Shown piece by piece: positions 2-15,125 of a DNA stretch of 64,000 nt (positions are counted from its first letter, which is position 1; each line of letters starts with the position of its first letter). Both the position numbers and the translations under genes were made by a program. The notes below the pieces were generated by a model, which made no database searches, had not been told where the DNA came from, and saw only the letters and a list, made by a program, of their open reading frames with translations. The DNA is from Flavobacterium sp. 102 (lineage in GTDB: Bacteria > Bacteroidota > Bacteroidia > Flavobacteriales > Flavobacteriaceae), in assembly GCF_003634615.1 (NCBI RefSeq), contig NZ_RBKX01000001.1, forward strand, positions 2,604,001-2,668,000, written 5' to 3'.

Positions 2-997
2 CAAATTCAAGTACCGCTTTATCAAGGCACAAAAATCATTGGCTTCATGATTGTAGCCATGTCGCTTGAGGATTCCATAATGGTTTTAAACAATTTGTTT
101 ACCATTATGCTGATTGCTTATCCAATGATATTATTAGTGCTGTTTCTCATCGCTCGATTTATTGCCGGTAGAAGTATAAAGCCAATAAGTACTATCATTG
201 AAACGTCTAATGATATTACAAAAGACAATCTGAAATCGAGAATTCCGTTGCCTCAAAATCGCGATGAATTGTTTATCTTATCGCAAACTATCAATAACTT
301 ATTGGATAGGGTAGAGAATGCCATTGAACGCGAAAAACAGTTTACATCAGATGCGTCTCATGAACTGAGAACACCATTGGCAGTAATTAAAGGAACTTTA
401 GAAGTGTTAGTTCGTAAACCTCGTAATCCTGAGGAATATAAAGAAAAAATAGACTTTTGTATTAATGAAGTAAATCGTTTGAATCACTTGGTAGATGAAT
501 TGCTTTTATTGGCTCGTTTCGAAAACCAAAAGCAAACTTTAAAGTTGGAAAAGGTTTCATTAAACGCCATTTTCCTCGATGTTATTTCTCGAAATTCAAC
601 CATTATAAGCGAGAAGAAAATTAAATGTGTGGCCAACTTCCCGAAAGATTTTTATGTTACTACCGATGCGTATTTGCTTGGCATTATAGTAAACAACATT
701 TTAACCAATGCGGTGAAATATTCTAAACCCAATGACACCATCAACTTTGACATCATTGAAACCGAAAATAAATTGATTTGTTCTGTTTCTGATCAAGGAA
801 TTGGTATTGCAGAAGAAGATTTGCAGAAGATTTTTGACCAATTTTATCGTTCCAAATCAAACGAACATCCGGAAATCAAAGGAACAGGCTTGGGATTGTC
901 CATTGTAAAAAGATTATCGTTATTACTTCAAATTGATTTGCAAATAGAAAGCGAAGAAAATAAAGGAACCAAAGTCATTTTAGGCTTTATTAAATAA
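2..997 (+). CDS. Sensor histidine kinase, 5' end outside window
   Basis: This is the C-terminal part of a membrane-bound two-component sensor kinase. The reading frame is open to the first base of the window, so the true start lies upstream; the ATG at 47 is internal. The visible order is one membrane helix (codons near 110-165), a HAMP linker, then a HisKA helix with the motif ASHELRTPL, whose His (codon at 359-361) is the expected phospho-acceptor. The HATPase domain has an N box (NNILTNAVKYS), G1 (DQGIGI) and G2 (GTGLGLSIV). All catalytic boxes are present, so the enzyme should be active. The partner response regulator is probably just upstream but cannot be seen. The signal sensed is unknown. 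Confidence 0.93.
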   Translation, partial: QIQVPLYQGTKIIGFMIVAMSLEDSIMVLNNLFTIMLIAYPMILLVLFLIARFIAGRSIKPISTIIETSNDITKDNLKSRIPLPQNRDELFILSQTINNLLDRVENAIEREKQFTSDASHELRTPLAVIKGTLEVLVRKPRNPEEYKEKIDFCINEVNRLNHLVDELLLLARFENQKQTLKLEKVSLNAIFLDVISRNSTIISEKKIKCVANFPKDFYVTTDAYLLGIIVNNILTNAVKYSKPNDTINFDIIETENKLICSVSDQGIGIAEEDLQKIFDQFYRSKSNEHPEIKGTGLGLSIVKRLSLLLQIDLQIESEENKGTKVILGFIK

Positions 998-1072
998 TTG
1001 ACAATGTGACAATTATCATGTTCCGCAAAGTAAATAATGAGTATTTTTGAATTAAACTAAACAACAAAAACC

Positions 1073-1570
1073 ATGAACGACGCTCACTTACACCTATTAG
1101 TTAACCATTTTCCAATCATCGGGACGATTATTGGATTGGGCATTTTAATTGCCGGTATTGTATTAAAAAACAAGGCGGTAAAGAACACGGCATTTGTTGT
1201 ACTGATTGTGGCAGCTGTTTTTGGCTTTGCGTCAATGTCAACCGGTGAAGGCGCAGAAGAATTGGTAGAAGACATGCCAAGTGTTGGTAAAAAAATAATT
1301 CACGAGCACGAAGAATTAGCAGAGAAGTTTGTTTTGATACTTTATGTTACGGGAGCTTTCGCGCTATTGTCCTTAATTGCCACCGCTAAAAACCATTCTA
1401 AAGCCAAATTATTTACGCGGATAACTTTACTGTTAACCATAGTTACAGTAGTCTTGGTAAAAAATGTTGGTACTTCAGGTGGTGAAATTCGCCATACAGA
1501 GATTAGAGCCAATGCCAACAGTCCTGAAATTGCTGCTCCCGAAAATGGAGGCGAACAGGAAGAAGATTAA
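1073..1570 (+). CDS. Small four-helix membrane protein, DUF2231-like
   Basis: A 165-residue protein with four predicted membrane helices (about residues 12-31, 38-54, 86-103 and 115-129) and a short acidic soluble tail. The N-terminus carries HLHLLVNHFPIIG, resembling the His-rich first helix of DUF2231-type membrane proteins, and a second His/Glu cluster (HEHEE) precedes helix 3. Such histidines can bind haem or metal, but that is inference. It stands alone downstream of the kinase and is followed by a strong hairpin terminator. Function unknown. Confidence 0.8.
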   Translation: MNDAHLHLLVNHFPIIGTIIGLGILIAGIVLKNKAVKNTAFVVLIVAAVFGFASMSTGEGAEELVEDMPSVGKKIIHEHEELAEKFVLILYVTGAFALLSLIATAKNHSKAKLFTRITLLLTIVTVVLVKNVGTSGGEIRHTEIRANANSPEIAAPENGGEQEED

Positions 1571-1758: not shown

Positions 1759-2901
1759 ATGCGCAGCACTGATGACAATGTAACGGAAGATTTAGCACTC
1801 AAGAAAATTATTGAACCCCAACTCAATATTATTTTAACTACTGACGAAGACGACGAAAGACCGGTTTATATCTCCGGTAACTTCAATAATTGGGTAACTC
1901 AAGACAAGAATTTTGAAATGGAACGCGTAGGGCAAGGTTTGTATCATTACAAGTTTGCCCACGATTTTACTTATCCCGACGAACTTTTATACAAATTTAC
2001 CCGCGGCGATTGGAGCGAAGTCGAAATAGATAAATTTGGGAATCGTACTGAAAACAGAAGTTGCAAACAACACAACGGCGTGCGCAAAGAGCATGTGGCC
2101 AAATGGCGACACAATTGGTTACCATTTAAATCAAAGTTTTTACCGAAAGTTCATTTGATTTCTGAAGAATTCGAAATTCCGCAATTGAATAAAACCCGCA
2201 GAGTATGGGCATTGTTGCCTCATGATTATGAAAAGACAACAGAGACTTATCCGGTGTTGTATCTTCAAGATGCCCAAAATTTATTCAATGAAAAAGCCAA
2301 ATACGGCAATTGGGAAATCGATAAAAAACTCGCTGTAATGGCGGAATACAAGATTGGCAAAATCATCATTATAGCAGTTGAACATGCTGAAAAAGAAAGG
2401 ATTAAAGAATACAATGTCGGCAATACCGTTTTAGGCAGTGGCGAAGGCAAAAAGTACATTCGTTTTGTTACCGAAACGTTGAAACCCTTTGTAGATGCCA
2501 ATTTCAGAACCAAACCCGAACGCGAATACACCGGAATTGGTGGCAGTTCTATGGGCGGATTGGTCAGCATTTTTTCGGGGATTATGTATCCGGAAATCTT
2601 TGGCAAGTTGATGATATTTTCGCCATCGCTTTGGGTTGTTCCTAAAATCAAATTGTCATTCCTGGACATTGACGAACCACAAGAAACGCGAATTTATCTT
2701 TATGCCGGTGGCGATGAAAGTGCGACCATGATTGATCACGTGCAGCATTTCAAAAAACGATTACTCAAAAAAGAAGGTTTCGCCGATAAAATGAAAGTGC
2801 GTTTAAGCCTCGATATGGAAGGCAAACACAACGAGAGATATTGGAGCGATGAATTCCCAAAAGCAATAGAATGGCTTTATTTTAGTACTAAAGAAGAATA
2901 A
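1759..2901 (+). CDS. Esterase D-like alpha/beta hydrolase with N-terminal E-set/CBM48-like domain
   Basis: A 380-residue two-domain protein. Residues about 20-110 resemble the glycogen-binding/E-set fold (YISGNFNNW), and residues 130-375 form an alpha/beta hydrolase of the enterochelin-esterase (PF00756) type. The nucleophile elbow is GGSSMGGL and a candidate catalytic His is in EGKHNERYW. No signal peptide is visible, so it is probably cytoplasmic. It starts an operon with the M17 peptidase 9 bp downstream and an ATP-grasp ligase after that, so its substrate may be an ester, thioester or amide made by the neighbouring ligases rather than a siderophore. A second, shorter esterase of similar class lies at the head of the convergent operon. 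The exact substrate cannot be told from sequence. Confidence 0.88.
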   Translation: MRSTDDNVTEDLALKKIIEPQLNIILTTDEDDERPVYISGNFNNWVTQDKNFEMERVGQGLYHYKFAHDFTYPDELLYKFTRGDWSEVEIDKFGNRTENRSCKQHNGVRKEHVAKWRHNWLPFKSKFLPKVHLISEEFEIPQLNKTRRVWALLPHDYEKTTETYPVLYLQDAQNLFNEKAKYGNWEIDKKLAVMAEYKIGKIIIIAVEHAEKERIKEYNVGNTVLGSGEGKKYIRFVTETLKPFVDANFRTKPEREYTGIGGSSMGGLVSIFSGIMYPEIFGKLMIFSPSLWVVPKIKLSFLDIDEPQETRIYLYAGGDESATMIDHVQHFKKRLLKKEGFADKMKVRLSLDMEGKHNERYWSDEFPKAIEWLYFSTKEE

Positions 2902-2910
2902 ATTAGAATT

Positions 2911-4332
2911 ATGAAAACAAAACAAATAAAAACCCTTGACGGATTTACCGGAACCATTTTAATTCCGGTGTATGAAACCAATGCTAAAAGTATAGTGCCG
3001 ATTGAATACCACGGCACCACAGTTTCTTCCAAGGTATTTTACGGAAAAAAAGATACGCATTATTTAGTCGAAAAATACGATTGCACTCATGTCTTTATCG
3101 GTTTAGGTGCAGCCATTGATTACAAATCGATTAAAACCATTTTCAGACGAATTGCTTCCAAACAAAAAGAGGTTTTCGGTCAAAATGTAGCTTTGGCTTT
3201 TCCGGAAAAATTCAATCCGAATGAAGTAGAAGCAGCTGTTTCCGGATTGGTTTTAGGAACTTATGATTTAGGTCATTACAAGAAAAATGAAACGCATCCT
3301 TTAGCAAAAGACAATTTCGAATTGCAATATTTGGCCAAAAACGATGTAGAAGAAGCGATAAACAAAGGAATCAAAATCGCCAACGCGCAATTAGAAACTT
3401 TCAACTTGGTTGATTTACCACCTAATAAAGTCAACCCAAAATACTTAGCCGATTGGGCCACCGAAGCCGGTGAAAAATATGGTTTTGAAGTAACCGTTTT
3501 TGGGAAAGCAAAATCAACTGAAATAGGTTTGCATTCTTTTCTGTCGGTTGGCAAAGGCAGTGCCAATGAACCGCAATTCATCATCATGGAATACAAACCC
3601 GAAAAAGCGAAGAAACATATCGGTTTGGTTGGGAAAGGAATTACGTTTGACACCGGAGGATTGAATATTAAAACCGCCGGAATGGTTCAAATGAAATGTG
3701 ATATGGCCGGTGGCGCAGCAGTTTTAGGCGCAATGCAATTGATAGCTGATTTGCAATTGCCTTATCGCGTGACTGCTATTGTGCCTGCGTGTGAAAATTC
3801 GGTGGATGCGCATTCGTTTATGCCGAGTGATGTGATTCAAAGTTATGCCGGACATTCAATAGAAATCATTGATACCGATGCTGAAGGCCGATTGATATTA
3901 GTCGATGGATTATCGTATTTGATTAAAAATTACAAACCGGAAACGGTGATTGATTTAGCTACTTTAACCGGAAGTGTCATTGGCACTTTAGGCTACGAAT
4001 GCGCCGGTTTGTTTACCAATAATGAAGAGTTGTCCAAAAGATTACAGCAATCAGGTGACGCCATCGGTGAGCGTTTGTGGCAATTACCGCTTTGGGATGA
4101 ATACAAACCGGATATCGACAGCGAGATTGCCGATGTGAAAAACTATTCGGGTAAACCGGTTGCCGGAGCGATTTCGGCAGCGAAGTTTTTAGAATATTTC
4201 ACCGAAGACCATAAATCGTGGGCACATTTGGATATAGCCGGCGTGGCTTTTGGCGATGATGAATTCGCTAAGACCAAACATGCAACAGCTTATGGCGTAC
4301 ATTTAATTACTAAATTTATTGAAAATCTATAG
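2911..4332 (+). CDS. M17 leucyl aminopeptidase family protein
   Basis: A 473-residue cytosolic metallo-aminopeptidase of family M17. The C-terminal catalytic domain shows the metal-binding Lys/Asp motif VGKGITFDTGG and the family signature DTDAEGRLILVD, with the catalytic Arg in AEGR. The N-terminal half is the usual less conserved domain. It removes N-terminal residues from peptides. It lies 9 bp after the esterase and 3 bp before an ATP-grasp ligase, so it is very likely cotranscribed with peptide-forming enzymes. That suggests it trims or recycles a specific peptide rather than acting only as a general housekeeping peptidase (inference). Confidence 0.95.
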   Translation: MKTKQIKTLDGFTGTILIPVYETNAKSIVPIEYHGTTVSSKVFYGKKDTHYLVEKYDCTHVFIGLGAAIDYKSIKTIFRRIASKQKEVFGQNVALAFPEKFNPNEVEAAVSGLVLGTYDLGHYKKNETHPLAKDNFELQYLAKNDVEEAINKGIKIANAQLETFNLVDLPPNKVNPKYLADWATEAGEKYGFEVTVFGKAKSTEIGLHSFLSVGKGSANEPQFIIMEYKPEKAKKHIGLVGKGITFDTGGLNIKTAGMVQMKCDMAGGAAVLGAMQLIADLQLPYRVTAIVPACENSVDAHSFMPSDVIQSYAGHSIEIIDTDAEGRLILVDGLSYLIKNYKPETVIDLATLTGSVIGTLGYECAGLFTNNEELSKRLQQSGDAIGERLWQLPLWDEYKPDIDSEIADVKNYSGKPVAGAISAAKFLEYFTEDHKSWAHLDIAGVAFGDDEFAKTKHATAYGVHLITKFIENL

Positions 4333-4335
4333 CAT

Positions 4336-5553
4336 ATGGAAAATCCAATCAAAAATTTCATTTGTATTTCCAACTATTTTAAAGGGAATGATTTCTTAAT
4401 TAATTTGAAGAAACAGGGCAATAAAGTCTATTTAATCACTTCGGAAAAGTTGCGCGACAAACCGTGGGCTTTTGATTACATAGACGAAATATATTTTATG
4501 CCCGGACAAGATGTTGATTGGAATTTGGAGGAATTATTAGCCGGTGTTGCCGGTTTAATGCGCGAAAGAAAGATTGACGGCATAGTGGCGTTAGATGATT
4601 TTGATGTGGAAAAGGCAGCTTATTTGCGTGAGAATCTAAGAATCTCCGGAATGGGACAAACCACCGGAAGGTATTTCCGAGACAAATTGGCGATGAGAAT
4701 GCGAGCCAAAGACGCAGGTATTCCGATTCCTGCTTTTAGTCCGTTGTTTAATGATGTTGAAATTAATGAATTTGCCGATACGGTTGCGCCACCATGGGTT
4801 TTAAAACCACGTTCGGAAGCTTCGGCTTCGGGAATTATGAAGGTTCATTCTGCAGCCGAACTTTGGGAAAAAATCCACGGATTAGGCGATAATCGAATCA
4901 AATATTTGGTGGAACAATTCAAACCTGGTGCGGTTTATCACTGCGATGGATTGAATTGGCACGGCAAAACGTTATTCTCCATAACGTCTCAATATTTGGC
5001 AACGCCAATGGAAATCTCCCAAGGCGGCGGTATTTTCAGAAGTGCCAATATTCCTTATGATTCCAAAGACGACAAAGCCATCAAAAAACAAAACGAACAA
5101 GTTTTAAAAGCTTTTGGCATGCAACATGGTGCCAACCATACCGAGTTTATCAAATGCAATGATGATGGTAAAATCTACTTTTTAGAAACGGCATCGCGTG
5201 TTGGTGGCGCGCACTTAGCCGAAATGGTTGAGGCGGCTTCAGGTGTAAATCTTTGGAGCGAATGGGCCAAAATAGAAGATGCGTTAGTCAAAGGCAAACA
5301 ATACAAATTGCCAACCATCAAAAAAGAATTCGCCGGGATTGTACTGACGTTGTCCAAATTTGAACATCCTGATTTATCCGGTTTTAATGATACTGAGGTT
5401 TGTTTCCGTGTACCTTTAGATTTCCACGCCGGGTTGATTGTAAAAAGCGATAATCACGCTCGTGTCAGAGAATTATTAGACGATTATGCGGAACGATTGA
5501 TTCGAGATTATGCTACTGTAGCCCAACAGGAAGCAGTTAAGAAATTACATTAA
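4336..5553 (+). CDS. ATP-grasp carboxylate-amine ligase
   Basis: A 405-residue ATP-grasp enzyme of the carbamoyl-phosphate-synthase/PurK-like superfamily. Central motifs include the ATP-binding Lys and loop in WVLKPRSEASASG, the hinge YLVEQF, and the Mg-binding segment KIYFLETASRVGG. Such enzymes activate a carboxylate as acyl-phosphate and join it to an amine or thiol. The start is 3 bp after the peptidase stop, so the two genes are translationally close. With the GCS2-type ligase and two further ATP-grasp proteins on the other strand, it supports a peptide or amide biosynthetic role. The substrates are unknown. Confidence 0.92.
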   Translation: MENPIKNFICISNYFKGNDFLINLKKQGNKVYLITSEKLRDKPWAFDYIDEIYFMPGQDVDWNLEELLAGVAGLMRERKIDGIVALDDFDVEKAAYLRENLRISGMGQTTGRYFRDKLAMRMRAKDAGIPIPAFSPLFNDVEINEFADTVAPPWVLKPRSEASASGIMKVHSAAELWEKIHGLGDNRIKYLVEQFKPGAVYHCDGLNWHGKTLFSITSQYLATPMEISQGGGIFRSANIPYDSKDDKAIKKQNEQVLKAFGMQHGANHTEFIKCNDDGKIYFLETASRVGGAHLAEMVEAASGVNLWSEWAKIEDALVKGKQYKLPTIKKEFAGIVLTLSKFEHPDLSGFNDTEVCFRVPLDFHAGLIVKSDNHARVRELLDDYAERLIRDYATVAQQEAVKKLH

Positions 5554-5600
5554 TAAATACGCAGATTAAAACATTATAAAATAATCTGCGGTAAAAATTT

Positions 5601-6149
5601 ATGACCAATAAAACCTATACCAAACTAAACTTTCATTCCCATACCTTTTGTATTTGGAAAGAAGTGCCTTTTAACCAAATCAAGGATTTAAAAATCAATT
5701 ATACCAGTCAATCAGGTAGTCAATATATTTTTACGGCTGAAGGTTTGTATCGCATTTCCAATCATTGGGGTCGAGTAGCGAATTGTCATTGGCGATTAAT
5801 TCCATTAACGGAATTTAAAAACCAAAACATCACGGTTGCCTTTGCACAATGGACTGATTTTTATTCTAATGATGACACTTCGAAGTTGTTTTATGTCAAA
5901 GTAAATAGGGAAACCAAAGAAGTTAATTTTTACCACAAACTCTCGGCAGATGACAATGAAAAAGTGGTTTTAAGAAACGCCAAAGATACTGCCAAAACCA
6001 TCAGAACTATCAAAGAAGTCTTGACCCAAGACGATTGGGCGAAGTATTTACAATATGATGATTTAGAAACTTTGCGAAGCGAAATTGTAAACGAATTGGT
6101 GCACACTCCTAAAAGCTTTTTGGAAGTAAAGAAGACTTATTTAGGTTAG
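5601..6149 (+). CDS. Uncharacterised protein at the end of the ligase operon
   Basis: A 182-residue soluble protein that I do not recognise. It is rich in aromatic residues and His in its first half (FHSHTFCIW, SNHWGRVANCHWRL) and has an amphipathic helical second half. There is no signal peptide or membrane helix. It is 47 bp downstream of the ATP-grasp gene and its stop overlaps the stop of the convergent gene by 3-4 bp. Its position in the amidoligase cluster suggests a role in that pathway, for example a substrate-binding or maturation factor, but this is guilt by association only. Confidence 0.75.
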   Translation: MTNKTYTKLNFHSHTFCIWKEVPFNQIKDLKINYTSQSGSQYIFTAEGLYRISNHWGRVANCHWRLIPLTEFKNQNITVAFAQWTDFYSNDDTSKLFYVKVNRETKEVNFYHKLSADDNEKVVLRNAKDTAKTIRTIKEVLTQDDWAKYLQYDDLETLRSEIVNELVHTPKSFLEVKKTYLG

Positions 6150-7339
6150 TCTTGTTCAAACATGCCAACTGTTCCGCCAACCCAATCTTTGTCTTTGTTG
6201 AATTTGACACCAATCATTTCACCACGACTTAATCGAACTAAATTGGTGACTAGAGTGGGAGATGGAGCGTCTTTTTTCCAAACGGCCAGTATTCGAACTT
6301 CTGCCTTTACTTTTCCGTCTGGTGATTGAATGATGGGTTTATAGTTGACTTTTTTCTGTAATATGTATAAATCTTTTTCTTCTACAGCTTCAATATCTCC
6401 GGGCTTTACGTGAAAAATCACACCGCTGCCTGAGAAAGAAAATAATGGTTTCAAAACATAATTTTCTAAATCGGTTGGGATTGCTGTTAAGTCGGAAAGC
6501 AAAGTGGTTTCGATGAAATATTTTCCTTTTAAATAGGGTAAGATGAACTTACTGATTCTGAAAAACCAATTCGGATGACCTGCCCATTCTACATCGTATT
6601 CTTTCGAGAAATCGAAGTTCAATTGCAAATCGGTGCGCAAATCTAATTCATCAAAAATCACGCGATTGTATATGCGCTTCACTTGCGTTTCTTCGCCTTG
6701 AGTATTTTTATAGAAAAGTTGGTTCTCTTTTTCATACAATTCGGTCACACAAACTACTGGAATGCCTAAATCGCTGTGACAATAGTAGAAATCAATCTTA
6801 GTATTTTGCTTTTCAGGTTCGATTTCTAACAGGATTACATTCTCTTTTGGTAAGTCATTGCAAATTACTTCTTCTATTAGTCTCAAATAACTTTCCGGAT
6901 TCAATCCATTAAAAAATGGCGTCAACTCAGACAGAAAAGGGTAATGGTTGACAAATTTTTGGGACAAATGATTCTGAAAATTAAACAACGAAGGGAAACC
7001 TTGTACTTCAATCAGCTTTGGTACAATTTCGCAATCTTCTTCACAAATGCCAAAATCAATCGCTAAAAAAGTAGTGTGATTGTCTTCATTCGGCACTTTT
7101 CTGTTTAATTCTAAAGCTCTATCGGTAAGTGATTTGAATTCGTTCTTTTGAATGAAACTAATAACTTCCTGACAACCTTCTAGTAATTGTTCTTTTAACG
7201 AATTCGGAATAAAAAAAGGAGTTTCACCAATTCGGAACGTCACTTTATAATCGAAATCAGAAGTGATATCTGCTTGCATGGCGTCGTATTTGGCCACGGT
7301 AAAGTTGTCGTTGAAAAGTTGGCGGTATTTTGGATTCAT
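6146..7339 (-). CDS. ATP-grasp-like protein of unknown substrate
   Basis: A 397-residue protein whose C-terminal third looks like the ATP-binding half of an ATP-grasp enzyme: YVLKPLFSFSGSG near residue 293 matches the Lys plus Gly/Ser-rich loop, followed by EVRILAVWK and LVRLSRGEMIGV. The N-terminal two thirds contain several acidic, conserved-looking segments (AIDFGICEEDCEIVPKLIEV) that resemble the permuted glutathionylspermidine-synthase-like arrangement, though not clearly enough to assign. It follows the amidotransferase gene by 9 bp, so the two are an operon. A carboxylate-amine ligase role is likely, but specificity cannot be inferred. Confidence 0.8.
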   Translation of the reverse strand: MNPKYRQLFNDNFTVAKYDAMQADITSDFDYKVTFRIGETPFFIPNSLKEQLLEGCQEVISFIQKNEFKSLTDRALELNRKVPNEDNHTTFLAIDFGICEEDCEIVPKLIEVQGFPSLFNFQNHLSQKFVNHYPFLSELTPFFNGLNPESYLRLIEEVICNDLPKENVILLEIEPEKQNTKIDFYYCHSDLGIPVVCVTELYEKENQLFYKNTQGEETQVKRIYNRVIFDELDLRTDLQLNFDFSKEYDVEWAGHPNWFFRISKFILPYLKGKYFIETTLLSDLTAIPTDLENYVLKPLFSFSGSGVIFHVKPGDIEAVEEKDLYILQKKVNYKPIIQSPDGKVKAEVRILAVWKKDAPSPTLVTNLVRLSRGEMIGVKFNKDKDWVGGTVGMFEQD

Positions 7340-7348
7340 TTTATAAAT

Positions 7349-8173
7349 CTAATTGGAAAGCGATTTTCTATGTTTCATCAAGTCATTAATGGCTATGCGT
7401 AAGAAATTCGGAATAATGGTTTCGTTGGTTTTATAGATTTTGTCTTCGTCTAATAAATCTTCTAACATATCGCGAAACTTGGTTTTACCTTTCATGGCGA
7501 TAATGTGTTCGCGTCTTTCTTTGTTTTTTAAATTGGCAACAAAACTCAACGCATCAGCTTCGGGATGAAATTGTAAGCCAACGAATTCATCCGAAAAACG
7601 AACACCCATAATGGCACGTTCGTATTCTACATGCGTTCTCATTTTTTCCAAAGCGATAATCATGGCGCCTTTTTTGCTGAAAATGCTCAGCTTAGGCTGA
7701 ACCACTTGGTAATCGCGACTATCAATGGCATAAAAAGGATTATTCAAACCTTCTAAAACCGGGTCGTTAGTTCCGGCTTCTGTTTTGTGAATGGTCATTA
7801 CGCCGAAAGAAGTAGCCTTTCTTTTATTGATTGTTGCCAATCCGAAATGATGACAAGCCATTTGGAAAGAATGACAGATAAACAACATGTGTTTTTTAAC
7901 TTTTTGTTCTTTGTTCCAATGCCATAATTGATCCACAAAATCATACCATTTTAAATCCCAACCATCGCCTTCTAAAGGATTTCCCGGTCCGCCGGTGGAA
8001 ATAAAAATATCATATTTCTGAATGTCCGGAAACTCTGATTTTCCTCTGACATCAAAAATTTGAAAGGTAACTATTTGGTTAAATCGGTTGACAATATCAA
8101 TAATACAGCGCATTCCTTGATTCGGTTCTCCGTTGTACATATCTAAAATCGCTATGCGAATGGGGTGACTCAT
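7349..8173 (-). CDS. Class I glutamine amidotransferase (GATase1) domain protein
   Basis: A 274-residue protein with a class I glutamine amidotransferase fold. The nucleophile Cys sits in LFICHSFQMA and the His-Glu pair in GLQFHPEAD, so the catalytic triad is complete. Normal GATase1 domains hydrolyse glutamine and pass ammonia to a synthetase partner; related stand-alone proteins hydrolyse gamma-glutamyl bonds. The partner synthetase is not fused here, and the next gene 9 bp downstream encodes an ATP-grasp-like protein that could take the ammonia. Alternatively it could remove a gamma-glutamyl group added by the YbdK-type ligase encoded 115 bp upstream. Both are inferences from context. Confidence 0.9.
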   Translation of the reverse strand: MSHPIRIAILDMYNGEPNQGMRCIIDIVNRFNQIVTFQIFDVRGKSEFPDIQKYDIFISTGGPGNPLEGDGWDLKWYDFVDQLWHWNKEQKVKKHMLFICHSFQMACHHFGLATINKRKATSFGVMTIHKTEAGTNDPVLEGLNNPFYAIDSRDYQVVQPKLSIFSKKGAMIIALEKMRTHVEYERAIMGVRFSDEFVGLQFHPEADALSFVANLKNKERREHIIAMKGKTKFRDMLEDLLDEDKIYKTNETIIPNFLRIAINDLMKHRKSLSN

Positions 8174-8193
8174 TTTTTTACAATTTGGTAACG

Positions 8194-8201
8194 CAAAGAT
8201 A
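8194..8201 (-). promoter_or_regulatory. Possible -7 box upstream of the GATase gene
   Basis: On the minus strand TATCTTTG matches TAnnTTTG 21 bp before the GATase start. No TTG lies at the correct distance upstream, so this is a weak call. It would allow the last two genes of the operon to be transcribed separately. Confidence 0.3.
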
Positions 8202-8288
8202 ACTTTTATGGTTGTGGGTTGTATGTTCTGGGTTGTAAGTTTTCAAAAGGCTATCAACAAATATTGCCCTACAACTTATAACGTACAA

Positions 8289-9398
8289 CTATAAACCTCT
8301 GGTAAATTCGCTGGTAATCATATCAACTACTTTTGTCAAATCTTGCGTGTAATTGAAAACAGCTAATTGTTTATCGGCTCCGGTTCCTTCATTTAGAATG
8401 GTGTGAACGTAGTTGATTTCGTCACGACTGCCTAATTCGTCAACCACATCGTCAATAAATTCAAGTAATTCGAGGATCAGACATTTGGTATTGACTTCTT
8501 GTTGCAAACCAAAATCAATCATATTGCCTTCAACGCCATATCTTGCGGCACGGAATTTATTTTCCTTAATCAAAGCAATTCTGTAAATATTGAAACTGGT
8601 GTTTGCCATAGTCAATTTGTATAATTTTGCAACAATGGCTTGAATGACGGCAACAATACACATCGCTTCATCAACGGTCAAACTCATGTCTGTGATACGA
8701 AATTCAATCGTGTCATAGAACGGATGCAAACGCAAATCCCACCAAATTTTCTTCGGATTGTCGATGCATTTGGTTTTGACCAAAGTCTCCAAATAGTTGT
8801 CATATGCTTGAACGCTATCAAAATATTCCGGCAAACCTGTACGTGGAAATTTATCAAATACTTTAGTTCTAAACGATTTATAACCGGTATTTCTTCCTTC
8901 CCAAAAAGGTGAATTGGTAGACAACGCAAAAATATGCGGTAAGAAATAAGTCGCCTGATTCATTAGCTGTAAACCAATTTCACGATTTTCTATTCCGACG
9001 TGACAATGCATCCCAAAAATCAGATTGGAACGTGCTGCATCTTGCAATTCGTTGACAATGTGATGGTATCTTGGATCGTCAGTAATAGGTTGGTCTTGCC
9101 AACGAGAAAACGGATGTGTTCCGGCGCCACCGACAACTAGGTTTTGTTTGGAGGCCAATTCTACTATTTTACTTCTCAGAAAGCGGATTTCGGCTTTGGC
9201 TTCCTTGACGTTTTTACAAATATTGGTGCCAACTTCAACGACGGATTGGTGCATTTCGGCTTTTACCTGTTCGTTTAAAATGATCTTAGCACCATCTACA
9301 ATTTTGGATAAATGTGACCGCAAATCGCGGGTTTCAGGATCTATAATTTGATATTCTTCTTCTACACCTAAGGTAAATACGGGTAATTTCTTCGTCAT
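8289..9398 (-). CDS. YbdK-type carboxylate-amine ligase (GCS2 family)
   Basis: A 369-residue member of the glutamate-cysteine ligase type 2 family. The N-terminal signature GVEEEYQ, the middle GMHCHVGIE and the C-terminal WWDLRLHP plus TIEFRITD are the family's metal and substrate motifs, all intact. E. coli YbdK has weak gamma-glutamyl-cysteine ligase activity. In this cluster, next to an ATP-grasp gene 28 bp upstream, it more likely joins glutamate (through its gamma-carboxyl) or another acid to an amine as part of a dedicated pathway. Length is normal and there is no sign of truncation. Confidence 0.93.
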   Translation of the reverse strand: MTKKLPVFTLGVEEEYQIIDPETRDLRSHLSKIVDGAKIILNEQVKAEMHQSVVEVGTNICKNVKEAKAEIRFLRSKIVELASKQNLVVGGAGTHPFSRWQDQPITDDPRYHHIVNELQDAARSNLIFGMHCHVGIENREIGLQLMNQATYFLPHIFALSTNSPFWEGRNTGYKSFRTKVFDKFPRTGLPEYFDSVQAYDNYLETLVKTKCIDNPKKIWWDLRLHPFYDTIEFRITDMSLTVDEAMCIVAVIQAIVAKLYKLTMANTSFNIYRIALIKENKFRAARYGVEGNMIDFGLQQEVNTKCLILELLEFIDDVVDELGSRDEINYVHTILNEGTGADKQLAVFNYTQDLTKVVDMITSEFTRGL

Positions 9399-9426
9399 TA
9401 TTTCACTTTTAAATTAAAGGAAAGTG

Positions 9427-10374
9427 TTATTTCTCTGCGGCTGCGTTTTTGATAAAATCGCCCCAAGTCAAGTTGATTTTGCCCGGTTTTTGCTTTTTAG
9501 CGAAAGCTATCGCCATTTGAGCCGCTTCTTCTACAACCCATTCAAAATTTTCGGCACCAACTGAAGTATATTCTGCATCCGGAGCAGGATTTCCAAAATC
9601 GATGGCGTATGGAATTCCGTCACGAACAGCAAATTCAACGGTATTGAAATCATAACCTAAACCTTTGCAAAGACGAAGCGTGTAATCTTTAATCGTTGCC
9701 ATTAGTTTTTTGTCCGTATTTGGATTTTCGACTACATATCTTAAATGGTGCGGATTTCTTGGTTCGTATGGCATAATGCGAACGGCCTTTCCGCCCAAAC
9801 AATACACACGATAATAATCATCGAAGACAATTTCCTCTTGTAAAAGCATTACCAACTGTCCGGTTTCTTGGTGTTTTTGCCAAAATTCTTCCTTGTTTTC
9901 TAATCGGTAAACATTTTTCCAACCACCACCGGCATAGGGTTTCATATAAGCCGGAAAACCGATGTATTCGAAAATACCTTCCCAATCCATAGGATATTTA
10001 AGATTTCTGAATGATTTTGAAGTTGTATCGGTCGGATGTTCCGCAGAAGGCAAAATTACCGTGTTTGGTAGTGGAACGCCCAGTGTATCCGCTAAAGCAT
10101 TATTAAAAAATTTATCATCGGCACTCCACCAAAATGGATTATTGATTACGTTGGTTCCCGTGAGTGCAGCATTTTTTAAATACGCACGATAAAAAGGAAC
10201 GTCTTGTGAAATTCTGTCTATAATTACGGCATATTCACCACCTTTGTTTTGCACTACTTTGTCTATGGAAACGGCTTCAGCGATAATTCCTTTTTCGTTT
10301 TTTGAGTTTACTCTTTCGATAAACGCATAAGGAAAAGTGTCTTCCATTCCGAATAAAATACCAATCTTTTTCAT
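9427..10374 (-). CDS. RimK-like ATP-grasp ligase
   Basis: A 315-residue ATP-grasp enzyme. Visible motifs are the ATP-binding Lys in YMKPYAGGGWKNV, the hinge LLQEEI, and the C-terminal Mg-binding segment VEFAVRDGIPYAIDFGNP. Overall it resembles RimK/glutathione-synthetase-like peptide ligases that add amino acids to a carboxylate. It lies 39 bp downstream of the esterase and 28 bp upstream of the YbdK-type ligase in one transcription unit. Two different ligase folds side by side suggest sequential couplings to build one product. Confidence 0.92.
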   Translation of the reverse strand: MKKIGILFGMEDTFPYAFIERVNSKNEKGIIAEAVSIDKVVQNKGGEYAVIIDRISQDVPFYRAYLKNAALTGTNVINNPFWWSADDKFFNNALADTLGVPLPNTVILPSAEHPTDTTSKSFRNLKYPMDWEGIFEYIGFPAYMKPYAGGGWKNVYRLENKEEFWQKHQETGQLVMLLQEEIVFDDYYRVYCLGGKAVRIMPYEPRNPHHLRYVVENPNTDKKLMATIKDYTLRLCKGLGYDFNTVEFAVRDGIPYAIDFGNPAPDAEYTSVGAENFEWVVEEAAQMAIAFAKKQKPGKINLTWGDFIKNAAAEK

Positions 10375-10413
10375 AACTCTGTTGTTTATTATTTTGTCTT
10401 ATTTTGTATTCTT

Positions 10414-11127
10414 TTAAAAAAACTTAATTCTGGATAAATAATGTGGAAACATTTCGCGCCAAACCGGCCAATCGTGTTCTCGGTCTTGGCGAACGTCTAA
10501 CCAATGCGGAATGTCTCTTTGGGAAAGAATTTTGCTCAACTTCAAATTGGCATCAAAACAAATGTCCCAATTGGAAGTGCCGAGTATGATGTCCATATTC
10601 CATAATTCAGCGTCGTTTAATCCGTGTAAATAATCTTCCGGACTATTGTAGAATACATTATCGTCCCAATGACCATCCATAAAACTTTTAATGGAAAAGG
10701 CTCCGCTTAGCGAAAACATATGACTGACATAACCCGGATGTTTGAGAGCAAAATTTGCTGCATGATAACCACCAAAACTACAGCCGGCTACCGCTACTTT
10801 TCCAGCGTAAGTGTTATTTCTTATCTTTTCTACAATTTCGTGGCAAATCATTTTATCGTACCAAACATGGTTTTGGATGCGATGAACAGGATGGATGTTT
10901 TTATTGTAGAAACTTTCTTTGTCTATGCTATTAGGACAAAAGATTTGTATCAAACCTTGATCAATATACCATCGGGCACTTTCTATTAAACCTTGGTCTT
11001 TATTTTCGTGGTAACTTCCCATAGAAGTAGGGAAGAGGATTACCGGATATCCCGAATGTCCAAAAACCAACATTTCGATTTCACGGCTCAAATTAGGCGA
11101 ATACCATTTAAAATATTCTTCTTTCAT
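10414..11127 (-). CDS. Alpha/beta hydrolase esterase (PF00756-like)
   Basis: A 237-residue single-domain esterase that heads the minus-strand operon. The nucleophile elbow is AGCSFGGYHA and the candidate catalytic His is in DREHDWPVW near the C-terminus. It lacks the N-terminal domain seen in the region 1 plus-strand esterase, and no signal peptide is present. As the first gene of a ligase operon it may release or hydrolyse an activated intermediate, but it could also be a general carboxylesterase. Confidence 0.9.
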   Translation of the reverse strand: MKEEYFKWYSPNLSREIEMLVFGHSGYPVILFPTSMGSYHENKDQGLIESARWYIDQGLIQIFCPNSIDKESFYNKNIHPVHRIQNHVWYDKMICHEIVEKIRNNTYAGKVAVAGCSFGGYHAANFALKHPGYVSHMFSLSGAFSIKSFMDGHWDDNVFYNSPEDYLHGLNDAELWNMDIILGTSNWDICFDANLKLSKILSQRDIPHWLDVRQDREHDWPVWREMFPHYLSRIKFF

Positions 11128-11366: not shown

Positions 11367-11765
11367 TTAGGCTACGAGTTCAATTAATTGAATTTGACTT
11401 TTAAGTCTTTCAATCAACATATTCATCATGCGTTTATTGATATTGGAAGAATTTTGGATATATTCTGCATATTCGTCTAAAGTAAAAAAGGCAATGACCA
11501 TACCTTTCAAAGAGTTTCTGAATTTGATATCTCTTTGGATAACATTTTCTACGTAGGCCATTTTCTTTTCGGGTGTAAGAGAAAAGAAAACATTCTTTTG
11601 TTTCATTGCATAATTGATAAAAACTTGAATGAACAAATCATTTTGTAACTTTAAAATAGGACGAAGGGTTTTGTTTTGAAAAACTTCCTCAAGCGAGGAC
11701 TGACTGGTTATCGTTCCTAAAGATTCTCCTCTTAACTCTAGAACATTGTTATCTCTGGCTTCCAT
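11367..11765 (-). CDS. Conserved flavobacterial protein of unknown function
   Basis: A 132-residue helical protein starting MEARDNNVLELRGESLGT. It resembles a family often labelled glyoxalase in flavobacterial annotations, but I see no glyoxalase metal motifs, so that label should not be relied on. No signal peptide or membrane helix. It lies alone between the esterase and the OmpA-type gene. The 239-bp gap on its downstream side, before the ligase operon, holds only AT-rich sequence. Confidence 0.75.
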   Translation of the reverse strand: MEARDNNVLELRGESLGTITSQSSLEEVFQNKTLRPILKLQNDLFIQVFINYAMKQKNVFFSLTPEKKMAYVENVIQRDIKFRNSLKGMVIAFFTLDEYAEYIQNSSNINKRMMNMLIERLKSQIQLIELVA

Positions 11766-13476: not shown

Positions 13477-13869
13477 ATGAGATTTCATACCAGAAAATGG
13501 GTAAAACCGGAAGATTTAAATCCTAACAGCACTTTGTTTGGCGGAAGACTATTGGCTTGGATAGATGAAGAATTGGCTCTCTATTCCATTATTCAATTGG
13601 AAAATCCTAAAATTGTAACCAAACACATGTCCGAGATTAACTTCAGAAGTTCGGCTAAGCAAGGCGATATTATTGAAATAGGTATTGATGTTGTTAAATT
13701 CGGTGGTTCTTCATTGACTTTGACTTGTCAAGTAAGAAACATGATGACACGTGAAATCATTATCACTATTGACTCTATTACTATGGTAAGTCTTGGCTCG
13801 GATGGGAAACCAAAACCACACGGAAAAACGCAAATTGAATATATTCAGGACAGATTGGGCGGTTATTGA
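13477..13869 (+). CDS. Acyl-CoA thioesterase, hotdog fold (YciA-like)
   Basis: A 130-residue hotdog thioesterase that hydrolyses acyl-CoA to free acid and CoA. The motif NPNSTLFGGRLLAWIDE carries the family's catalytic Asp region, and MSEINFRSSAKQGDIIEIG is the conserved central strand. Length is normal for the YciA/ACOT12-like group. It is monocistronic and converges on the MscS gene, overlapping its stop by 7 bp. Chain-length specificity cannot be read from sequence. Confidence 0.9.
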   Translation: MRFHTRKWVKPEDLNPNSTLFGGRLLAWIDEELALYSIIQLENPKIVTKHMSEINFRSSAKQGDIIEIGIDVVKFGGSSLTLTCQVRNMMTREIIITIDSITMVSLGSDGKPKPHGKTQIEYIQDRLGGY

Positions 13870-15125
13870 TCTACAAAATCACTTTTACCGGAAGGCATTT
13901 CATAAATTTCTAAGTCGAAATAGGGAATAGAAGCAAAAATATGATCGAAAATATCGGACATAATGTATTCGTAATTCTCAAACCGCTTATCATTCGAAAA
14001 AGTATAAATTTCCAATGGAATTCCCTGCGGCGTTGGTTGCAACTGTCGACAAAGCAATATCATATCTTTATTCAAACCCGGATATTGGCTTAAATACTGG
14101 GTAATGTATTTTCGGAACAACCCAAAATTAGTCATATTCCTTCCGTTAATGAGCAGTGATTTATCAATATTGTGCATTTGATTAAACTTCTCAATTTCAT
14201 TTTGACGGTGTTCAATATAATTGGTTACCAATTGGATTTTCTTCAACTCTCTTAATTCTTTTTCGTTTAAAAAACGAATGCTGTTGGCCTTAATTAAAAT
14301 GTGCCTTTTGATTCTTCTACCATTCGAATCCAGCATACCGCGCCAGTTTCTGAAGGAATCTGAAATCATGCTGTAAGTTGGAATAGTAGTGGTAGTATTG
14401 TCAAAATTTCGAACTTTTACGGTCGCCAAATTTATTTCGATTACGTCTCCATCGGCACCAAATTTGTCAAATGTAATCCAATCACCAATGCGAACCATAT
14501 CATTTAAGGAAACCTGAACACTGGCTACAAATCCCAAAATGGTATCTCTGAATATCAAAATGATAATAGCAGAAATAGCTCCGAATGTTCCCAACATTGC
14601 ACCGGTACTGATTTCAAATATTTTGGAAATAATCATGATAAAACCAAAAACCCACAACACTATCATGATAACCTGAATGTAACTATCAATAGGCTTATCA
14701 CTGTAAGACGGGTTTGATTTTAAATGATCACGAAAAGCATTAAGAATGGTTTTGATAATCCACAAAGTCAGCAATACGATATAAATACCAACGAGTTTTC
14801 CGAAAATGCCTTCCCAATAAACAAAGTTTTCTAAAATAATTGGAACTGATTTGTAGATAAACAATAGCGGAATCAAATGGGCAATGTATTTAGCAGTCTT
14901 ATTGGAGACCAATAAATCATCGAATCTGGTTTTGGTTCTTCTGGCAACAATAATCATACTTCTTACCAATACATATCGGAATACCCGATAGATTGCATAA
15001 ACAATTATCATTAGCACCACGATGTTTATCGCCAAACTCAAATAGGAAGATAGTGTTTCGCCAAAATCCCATTTTTTGAACAGCGGATAACTCCAACCAA
15101 ATATTTTATCGACGATTTTATGCAT
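13863..15125 (-). CDS. MscS-family mechanosensitive ion channel
   Basis: A 420-residue inner membrane channel of the MscS superfamily (YbdG-like size). Five or so N-terminal membrane helices run to about residue 205, with the pore-lining helix rich in Gly/Ala (TGAMLGTFGAISAIIILIF). The beta domain follows (GDWITFDKFGADGDVIEINL) and then a cytoplasmic domain. It relieves turgor during osmotic downshift. Its start overlaps the upstream DUF3817 gene by 8 bp, so the two are cotranscribed. Confidence 0.92.
   Translation of the reverse strand: MHKIVDKIFGWSYPLFKKWDFGETLSSYLSLAINIVVLMIIVYAIYRVFRYVLVRSMIIVARRTKTRFDDLLVSNKTAKYIAHLIPLLFIYKSVPIILENFVYWEGIFGKLVGIYIVLLTLWIIKTILNAFRDHLKSNPSYSDKPIDSYIQVIMIVLWVFGFIMIISKIFEISTGAMLGTFGAISAIIILIFRDTILGFVASVQVSLNDMVRIGDWITFDKFGADGDVIEINLATVKVRNFDNTTTTIPTYSMISDSFRNWRGMLDSNGRRIKRHILIKANSIRFLNEKELRELKKIQLVTNYIEHRQNEIEKFNQMHNIDKSLLINGRNMTNFGLFRKYITQYLSQYPGLNKDMILLCRQLQPTPQGIPLEIYTFSNDKRFENYEYIMSDIFDHIFASIPYFDLEIYEMPSGKSDFVDQ

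Follow-up and report, generated by a model that had tools for sequence, protein, structure and literature searches.

A conserved set of amide ligases and hydrolases in Bacteroidota that includes a remote relative of glutathionylspermidine synthase

Results

Organization of the locus

The window analyzed here is a 64,000-nucleotide stretch of the Flavobacterium sp. 102 genome, of which positions 1759–11127 carry nine open reading frames in two convergent operons (Table 1). The plus-strand operon encodes an esterase (A), an M17 aminopeptidase (B), an ATP-grasp protein (C) and a protein without a family (D), and runs into a minus-strand operon encoding an esterase (I), a RimK-like protein (H), a GCS2 protein (G), a class-I GATase-like protein (F) and an ATP-grasp-like protein (E). 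Coordinates and strands agreed with those of an earlier sequence-only reading. That reading had described the gaps as mostly 3–47 bp, which holds for A–B (9 bp), B–C (3 bp), C–D (47 bp), E–F (9 bp), G–H (28 bp) and H–I (39 bp), but not for F–G (115 bp) or for the convergent ends of D and E, which overlap by 4 bp. Consensus promoters and terminators were about as frequent as expected from shuffled sequence, and we gave them no weight.

Table 1. Genes of the two convergent operons (scores in bits)
Gene	Assignment	Position	Strand	Profile evidence
A	Esterase	1759..2901	+	PF00756
B	M17 aminopeptidase	2911..4332	+	PF00883, 371.7 vs cut-off 25
C	ATP-grasp ligase, L-amino-acid ligase type	4336..5553	+	ATP-grasp_4, 30.1 vs cut-off 27
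D	182 aa, lineage-specific	5601..6149	+	No family match
E	Remote glutathionylspermidine synthase/YgiC (GSP_synth) relative	6146..7339	-	hhalign; CP_ATPgrasp_1 sub-threshold, 15.8 vs 23.1
F	Class-I GATase-like; amidotransferase or amide hydrolase	7349..8173	-	PF00117, 38.8 vs cut-off 22.8
G	GCS2/YbdK-type carboxylate-amine ligase	8289..9398	-	PF04107; NF010039, 517.7 vs cut-off 371
H	RimK/LysX-like ATP-grasp ligase, hub of the set	9427..10374	-	No Pfam family; TIGR00768 rimK sub-threshold
I	Alpha/beta hydrolase, esterase type	10414..11127	-	PF00561, 27.8 vs cut-off 25.8; PF00756 also over cut-off

Catalytic positions and family assignments

The claim that the catalytic motifs are intact was borne out among aligned relatives of A, B, F and I. 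S264 and H357 of A were kept in at least 97% of 62 relatives, the M17 motifs of B in at least 97% of 33, and the C100/H203/E205 triad of F was invariant in all 15 aligned sequences. In I, S117 was found in 106 and H218 in 107 of 110 relatives, the nucleophile serine being lost in four loci. An apparent I–H fusion in one locus (L132) was rejected, as the reading frames differ.

Among the ligases, the closest PDB entries to G were 1tt4 and YbdK (1r8g). H matched the rimK family TIGR00768 with an E-value of 3.9e-6 and 26.4 bits, short of the cut-off of 143.4. In profile comparisons C matched solved L-amino acid ligases (PDB 4wd3, E 1.6e-23; 3vot, 5.7e-14; BacD, 1.7e-10), and it fell far under the cut-off of every NCBIfam family that it matched; it is related in sequence to L-amino-acid ligases and is a putative dipeptide-forming enzyme. 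A Pfam and NCBIfam-type profile search found no family for D.

E and CP8 are remote relatives of GSP_synth

The sequence-only reading had called E a second ATP-grasp-like protein and had overlooked a further relationship: when its alignment was compared with GSP_synth by hhalign, a match over 286 columns scored 91.4% (E 8.9e-7), indicating homology over most of the domain. Twelve column-shuffled alignments reached at most 0.4% against GSP_synth, as did the alignments of H, C and F against the same profile. Against just three E. coli sequences, E matched at 44.5% over 66 columns. Four E genes of other genomes contained sub-threshold PF03738 matches of 12.8–16.2 bits, and none of the E matches seen reached the cut-off of 29.3 bits; a PF03738 match was absent from at least seven E-positive genomes among those listed, and the window's own genome had none at E ≤ 0.001. 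Ten GSP_synth proteins share 17 invariant columns, the start methionine excluded, which we take to be active-site positions with catalytic roles. In an alignment read by eye, E was identical at seven of them (D95, E111, P256, K264, K297, G304 and Q328), while N117 of YgiC is replaced by Gln113 in E, and R100, D119 and T120 of YgiC, together with others, were unmatched. By the profile comparison, E is distantly related to the peptide-polyamine ligases of the glutathionylspermidine synthase/YgiC family, a relationship new here, and it is a putative peptide-amine ligase.

All 15 genomes with H and F but without E carried another protein, CP8, adjoining H. CP8 matched GSP_synth by hhalign with a score of 96.6% (E 6.3e-10), and we conclude from these profiles that it is another remote relative standing in place of E. 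E and CP8 are linked only through GSP_synth, since their direct comparison by hhalign gave no significant match (4.2%). We also considered that CP8 replaces G, and rejected this, because CP8 occurs in exactly the 15 H- and F-positive genomes lacking E, and seven of these have G.

The genes are kept, lost and exchanged together

Presence and absence were scored in 296 genomes, taken as Bacteroidota from named relatives, with one query per protein at E ≤ 1e-20, so that diverged orthologues count as absent. The counts were 107 genomes for H, 102 for G, 91 for E, 70 for F and 65 for C; those for I take in probable paralogues, many at 30–40% identity. H shared 88 genomes with E, 90 with G, 69 of the 70 F-positive genomes with F and all 65 C-positive genomes with C; related genomes are not independent, and the Fisher p-values for co-occurrence ignore relatedness. 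Among the 107 H-positive genomes, G was missing from 17, F from 38 and C from 42, and consequently no one fixed order of reactions suits all of them.

The sequence-only reading had named a lack of joint conservation in related species as a refutation; the genes were looked for in other genomes and proved to be conserved together. Around E (best 80 named loci), F was present in 77 loci, G and H in 70 each, I in 63, A in 31 (by tblastn, some at just 22–26% identity), C in 28 and B in 27. In 107 H-centred loci, the adjacent pairs were G–H (55 loci), H–I (43, the window included), E–F (32) and F–G (29). Reading frames in the fetched loci came from our own ORF caller, which preferred antisense frames in some (for example L128 and L131). 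In one genus all eight enzymes are collinear in the order E-F-G-H-I-C-B-A, and several lineages have them scattered. Because the same genes recur next to each other in distant genomes, the set is real beyond chance: the eight enzymes are kept, lost and exchanged together by many Bacteroidota. By contrast, D had been read as a pathway member, yet was present in only 9 of the 80 E-centred loci and probably lies outside the core set.

For all of H, G, E, F and I, the window's proteins are closer to those of one genus in a different order than to those of three further genera in its own family. This pattern suggests that the five genes were transferred as one block.

A separable sub-module and a replacement for F

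A, B and C are a separable sub-module that the sequence-only reading had missed. Of 40 C-centred loci fetched, C was unlabelled in three; over the remaining 37, B was the nearest same-strand gene upstream of C in eight.

In a few families the place of F is occupied by an M29 aminopeptidase. In a survey of 80 of the 296 genomes, a close M29 relative (at least 59% identity) was found in 6 of the 34 genomes with H and E but without F, five times beside E and G, and in none of the 31 F-positive genomes; a distant M29 protein (27–31% identity) also occurred in F-positive and H-negative genomes. With only 6 of 34 genomes carrying the close relative, M29 was rejected as a general replacement of F. 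The presence of M29 in the place of F in these few families weakens the case for F as an ammonia donor to a partner synthase and hints at a hydrolytic role.

Discussion

We consider it reasonably probable that the eight enzymes constitute one conserved, horizontally exchangeable module that would make and recycle a nonribosomal peptide-like amide. What can be read from the sequence is four families of ATP-dependent ligases (G, H, E and C), hydrolases with their catalytic positions kept, conserved linkage, joint occurrence across genomes, and nested subsets of genes. In the pathway that we propose, G and H would join amino acids, G perhaps making a gamma-glutamyl start that H extends; E would ligate the carboxylate of the peptide to an amine; C would supply or extend a dipeptide in the larger version of the set; and trimming or recycling of the product would fall to F (or M29), to B (or M14) and to the two esterases, A and I. 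The earlier proposal of one shared amide-forming pathway is supported by neighbourhood, co-occurrence and shared ancestry, but without D. The amine need not be spermidine, because the window's own genome has no match to PF03738 or nspC; spermidine is unsupported there by a search limited to nspC among its routes, and nspC exceeded its cut-off in one of seven genomes searched. The canonical glutathione pathway was looked for through gshB (TIGR01380) alone, rather than the bifunctional GshF, in the same number of genomes, the window's own included, and gshB never exceeded its cut-off (72.4 vs 299 bits in the own genome).

The order of the chemistry would resemble that of GshA–GshB–GspS and of the E. 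coli YgiC/YjfC peptide-spermidine ligases, in which a GCS2-type and an ATP-grasp enzyme precede a GSP_synth-related one. However, the enzymes here are only remotely related to those, E lies under the PF03738 cut-off, no gshB passed its cut-off, and the hydrolases and the C ligase are additional. The structural matches of C recall L-amino-acid ligases and the NRPS-independent ATP-grasp peptide pathways such as that of bacilysin (BacD), although C is below all NCBIfam cut-offs and confined to H-positive genomes. The pairing of a RimK-like ligase with peptidases recalls RimK/RimB ribosomal modification, but H is below the rimK cut-off and its neighbours belong to other families. Amidoligase neighbourhoods, operons mixing ATP-grasp and GCS2-like ligases with peptidases, were reportedly described by Iyer et al. 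in 2009, and gene sets similar to that of the window may have been catalogued then; the GSP_synth link and the replacements of E and F come from this analysis.

Three other explanations were weighed against a single module. The absence of C from 42 H-positive genomes, and the frequent location of A-B-C or B-C elsewhere in the genome, would fit two neighbouring pathways, the core I-H-G-F-E and an independent A-B-C peptide set. We think this unlikely, given that C was never found without H and that the two sets adjoin not only in the window's genome but also in several loci of Flavobacterium, Gelidibacter, Arenibacter and Saprospiraceae, besides being collinear in one genus. A protein-modification role, in which amino acids are attached to a protein by H (together with G or E) and taken off again by the peptidases, by analogy with RimK/RimB acting on ribosomal protein S6, is very unlikely. 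H is RimK-like, some H proteins have Lys-rich tails (most clearly that of L057), and Pseudomonas encodes RimK together with the protease RimB (PMC10092738); but the two esterases, the GCS2 protein and the relatives of L-amino-acid ligases and of YgiC/GspS point to the chemistry of small molecules or peptides, and a non-systematic look at operon ORFs of at least 70 aa noticed no recurring small protein.

A nitrogen or carbon reserve system tied to glycogen and cyanophycin, whose product would be a peptide serving as a store or osmolyte, or else a glycogen-granule conjugate, strikes us as rather improbable, but has several observations in its favour. In one genus the set is flanked by an IaaA-like peptidase, cphB and cphA on one side and by glgB-glgA-glgC on the other. 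Of the 35 families of G-handle loci, 4 had GlgA nearby, 3 GlgC, 3 IaaA and 2 CphB, as compared with 0 or 1 for 38 control genes; this association was noticed post hoc, however, the controls are unmatched for conservation or for how widespread the genes are, and the GlgA matches in two of the families (f29 and f34) are at just 31–35% identity. AMPK1_CBM, a glycogen recognition domain, passed its cut-off in one esterase linked to C (L258); sub-threshold matches lay in another such esterase (L260), in the A protein of L052 and in that of the window, the last a weak resemblance of the N-terminal region (E 0.11), but 8 of the 10 A proteins scanned lack it. Moreover, no glycogen or cyanophycin gene was found within the 64-kb window, and most loci have none.

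A literature search found no product name for this gene set. It is doubtful, if conceivable, that the single module is a remote Bacteroidota counterpart of glutathionylspermidine biosynthesis, whose GCS2, RimK-like and GspS/YgiC-like ligases would make a peptide-amine conjugate within carbon and nitrogen reserve metabolism near glycogen and cyanophycin. The substitutions of CP8 for E and of M29 for F predict clearly which reactions are equivalent. Judged by H (107 of 296), the core is present in roughly one in three genomes of the sample, and should E indeed attach an amine to the end of a peptide, these bacteria would harbour a widespread, so far undescribed class of peptide-amine compounds.

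Layout of the locus

All nine open reading frames (ORFs) of the sequence-only reading were found as described: A (esterase), B (M17 aminopeptidase), C (ATP-grasp) and D (182 aa, without family) on the plus strand, and I (esterase), H (RimK-like), G (GCS2), F (GATase1) and E (ATP-grasp-like) on the minus strand. Its gap range of 3–47 bp held for most of the intergenic gaps, but not for F–G, which is 115 bp, nor for the ends of the convergent operons, which overlap by 4 bp. The catalytic positions, rightly described as intact, were kept in nearly all aligned relatives (Cys-His-Glu in F, Ser/His in A and in I, and the M17 motifs). The nucleophile serine of the I protein is gone in four compared loci of family f16 (L051, L063, L071 and L079), so I may be non-catalytic there.

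Coordinates of the set, its neighbours and related features in compared loci (L numbers)
Position	Strand	Feature
Window 1759-11127	plus and minus	A–I
Window 47-1570 and 13477-15125		Ordinary-looking neighbours: sensor histidine kinase, DUF2231 membrane protein, YciA-like thioesterase (sub-threshold), MscS-like channel
Window 11367-11765	minus	132-aa ORF, no family; 35 of 80 E-centred loci, most of them Flavobacterium, have a relative close to I
L057:9105-10403		H protein with long Lys/Ala-rich, histone-H1-like C-terminal tail
L212:6519-7754		Long H ORF (411 aa)
L217:7704-9035		Long H ORF (443 aa)
L104:6028-9326		Between G and H: MFS transporter, HlyD-type protein, TetR regulator
L151:11201-13610	same as C	M1-type peptidase and DUF4240 protein just downstream of C in a Flavobacterium; ORFs of similar size in five other Flavobacterium loci

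Recurrence of the set in other genomes

The gene set is very probably real. Six separate searches, all run on one draw of 296 genomes (completeness 90% or higher; E-value ≤ 1e-20), found H in 107 genomes, E in 91, G in 102, C in 65, F in 70 and I in 124; H shared 88 genomes with E, 90 with G, 69 with F, 104 with I and 65 with C, and none of the 65 genomes with C lacked H or I. Fisher tests gave p-values as low as 1e-55; these take no account of relatedness and serve only as description. Counting against a reading of the genes as one set, G occurred in 12 H-less genomes, E in 3, F in 1 and I in 20, and among the 107 genomes with H, 17 lacked G, 38 lacked F and 42 lacked C.

Up to 20 kb around H was compared in 106 other H-bearing genomes and the window. 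ORF clustering placed H in 103 of these 107 loci; G was recovered in 58, E and I in 48 each, F in 46, A in 37, C in 11 and B in 7. The direct same-strand neighbours were G–H (55), H–I (43), E–F (32) and F–G (29). Named genomes were also scanned with an E alignment, which gave 585 confirmed places; the best 80 of them, a range biased to close relatives (those listed are Bacteroidota), contained F in 77, G in 70, H in 70, I in 63, A in 31, C in 28 and B in 27. D, counted as part of the set by the sequence-only reading, probably does not belong to its core, being present in only 9 of these best 80 of 585 loci, all nine with an E at least 80% identical to that of the window. Gene order in other Bacteroidota genomes had been proposed as a check: convergence of A-B-C with I-H-G-F-E, whole or partial, recurs in Flavobacterium, Gelidibacter, Arenibacter and one Saprospiraceae genome, and one genus, of the same order but another family, has all eight enzymes collinear as E-F-G-H-I-C-B-A.

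Window proteins are 83% (H), 78% (G), 65% (E), 64% (F) and 72% (I) identical to those of a genome from a different order (G076, L034); the values are 66, 61, 49, 50 and 62% for G226 (L057), of the window's own family, and 66–67, 60–61, 40–41, 46–47 and 37–38% for three further own-family loci. Of the 17 other genomes listed for the same genus, only 2 carried H. The identities and this occurrence of H fit an exchange of the block between lineages.

E and its counterpart CP8

Fifteen genomes have H and F without E, and all 15 carry CP8 (~457 aa) beside H; among the 226 loci compared, CP8 was found nowhere else. E or CP8 is thus present in 103 of 107 genomes with H (88 and 15, respectively), and the four with neither (G007, G087, G160 and G287) have the most divergent H, 34–45% identical to window H.

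Direct comparison of CP8 with E gave no match; each matched GSP_synth (PF03738, the GspS/YgiC peptide-polyamine ligases). Against solved structures, Escherichia coli YgiC was the only plausible relative of E found by sequence, and a weak one (E-values 0.075 and 0.0081). A PF03738 search of 128 genomes gave seven sub-threshold matches, four of them inside E genes (G125, G072, G126 and G076), and no match in at least seven other E-bearing genomes listed. A GSP_synth profile of ten proteins (YgiC, YjfC and eight from the PF03738 genome search) matched the E profile over 286 columns (91.4%, E-value 8.9e-7) and CP8 (96.6%, 6.3e-10), whereas twelve column-shuffled versions gave at most 0.4%, as did comparison of GSP_synth with the profiles of H, C and F. 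An earlier comparison of E with three E. coli sequences only had given 44.5%. Of the 17 columns invariant in GSP_synth, E has the identical residue in seven. Because E does not reach the Pfam GSP_synth cut-off and the best Pfam match of CP8 is a sub-threshold CP_ATPgrasp_2, we name both, as judged from these profiles, remote GSP_synth relatives, not members. RefSeq annotates YgiC and YjfC as peptide-spermidine ligases, whose biochemistry is cited in PMC12568646. It is plausible, with an even chance in our view, that E or CP8 links the carboxylate of a peptide to an amine.

C, G, H and F

The C profile matched solved L-amino acid ligase structures (4wd3, 1.6e-23; 3vot; BacD), G is a YbdK-type ligase above the family cut-off, and H is a divergent RimK/LysX-like ATP-grasp protein with no Pfam match. 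Four loci of family f24 (L090, L097, L098 and L108) have H adjoining a ~500-aa gene that we take, from its motif, to be ammonia-lyase-like; G lies ~8–14 kb from H on the same contig there, and E elsewhere in the genome.

C was labelled in 37 of 40 C-centred loci fetched, where the nearest same-strand upstream gene was M17 in 8, M14 carboxypeptidase in 3, A-like esterase in 3 and another gene in 23; pairing of C with a hydrolase is therefore a feature of several lineages, not of all. Pfam confirmed two M14 and two A-like esterase genes upstream of C, and both esterases matched AMPK1_CBM, one above cut-off.

An M29 aminopeptidase lies between E and G in four F-less loci. Close M29 relatives (at least 59% identity) were found in 6 of 34 genomes with H and E but without F, versus none of 31 F-bearing genomes tested; 28 of the 34 have neither. 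On a small scale, this pattern resembles that of E and CP8. Since M29 occupies the F position, F may act in hydrolysis and not in supplying ammonia.

Storage genes near the set

The collinear genus has an IaaA-like peptidase (below family cut-off), cyanophycinase and cyanophycin synthetase on one flank and GlgB-GlgA-GlgC on the other. GlgA or GlgC also lies near the set in families f5, f29, f34 and f42 (GlgA matches of f29 and f34 being just 31–35% identical) and in the named Saprospiraceae loci L201 and L217. Families f9 and f18 and the Hymenobacter locus L212 have IaaA-like or CphB genes nearby. Across 146 loci from genomes with G handles (35 families), GlgA reached 4 families, GlgC 3, IaaA 3, CphB 2, CphA 1 and GlgB 1. 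The 38 control genes comprised 28 window genes and 10 E. coli genes; 27 of them reached no family and 11 reached one. Because the storage genes were picked after being noticed beside the set and the controls are unmatched for how widespread they are, the link is a lead. No Glg, Cph or IaaA gene was present within the 64 kb of the window.

Proposed pathway

Iyer et al. 2009 is reportedly the most relevant older catalogue. It lies outside the literature searched, in which no named product for this set was found, and is cited in PMC4431377. We favor a nonribosomal pathway that couples a series of ATP-dependent ligations to built-in turnover. G, H and then E or CP8 would carry out the ligations, joined by C in the larger version of the set; the turnover would fall to the esterases A and I, to F or M29 and to B or M14.
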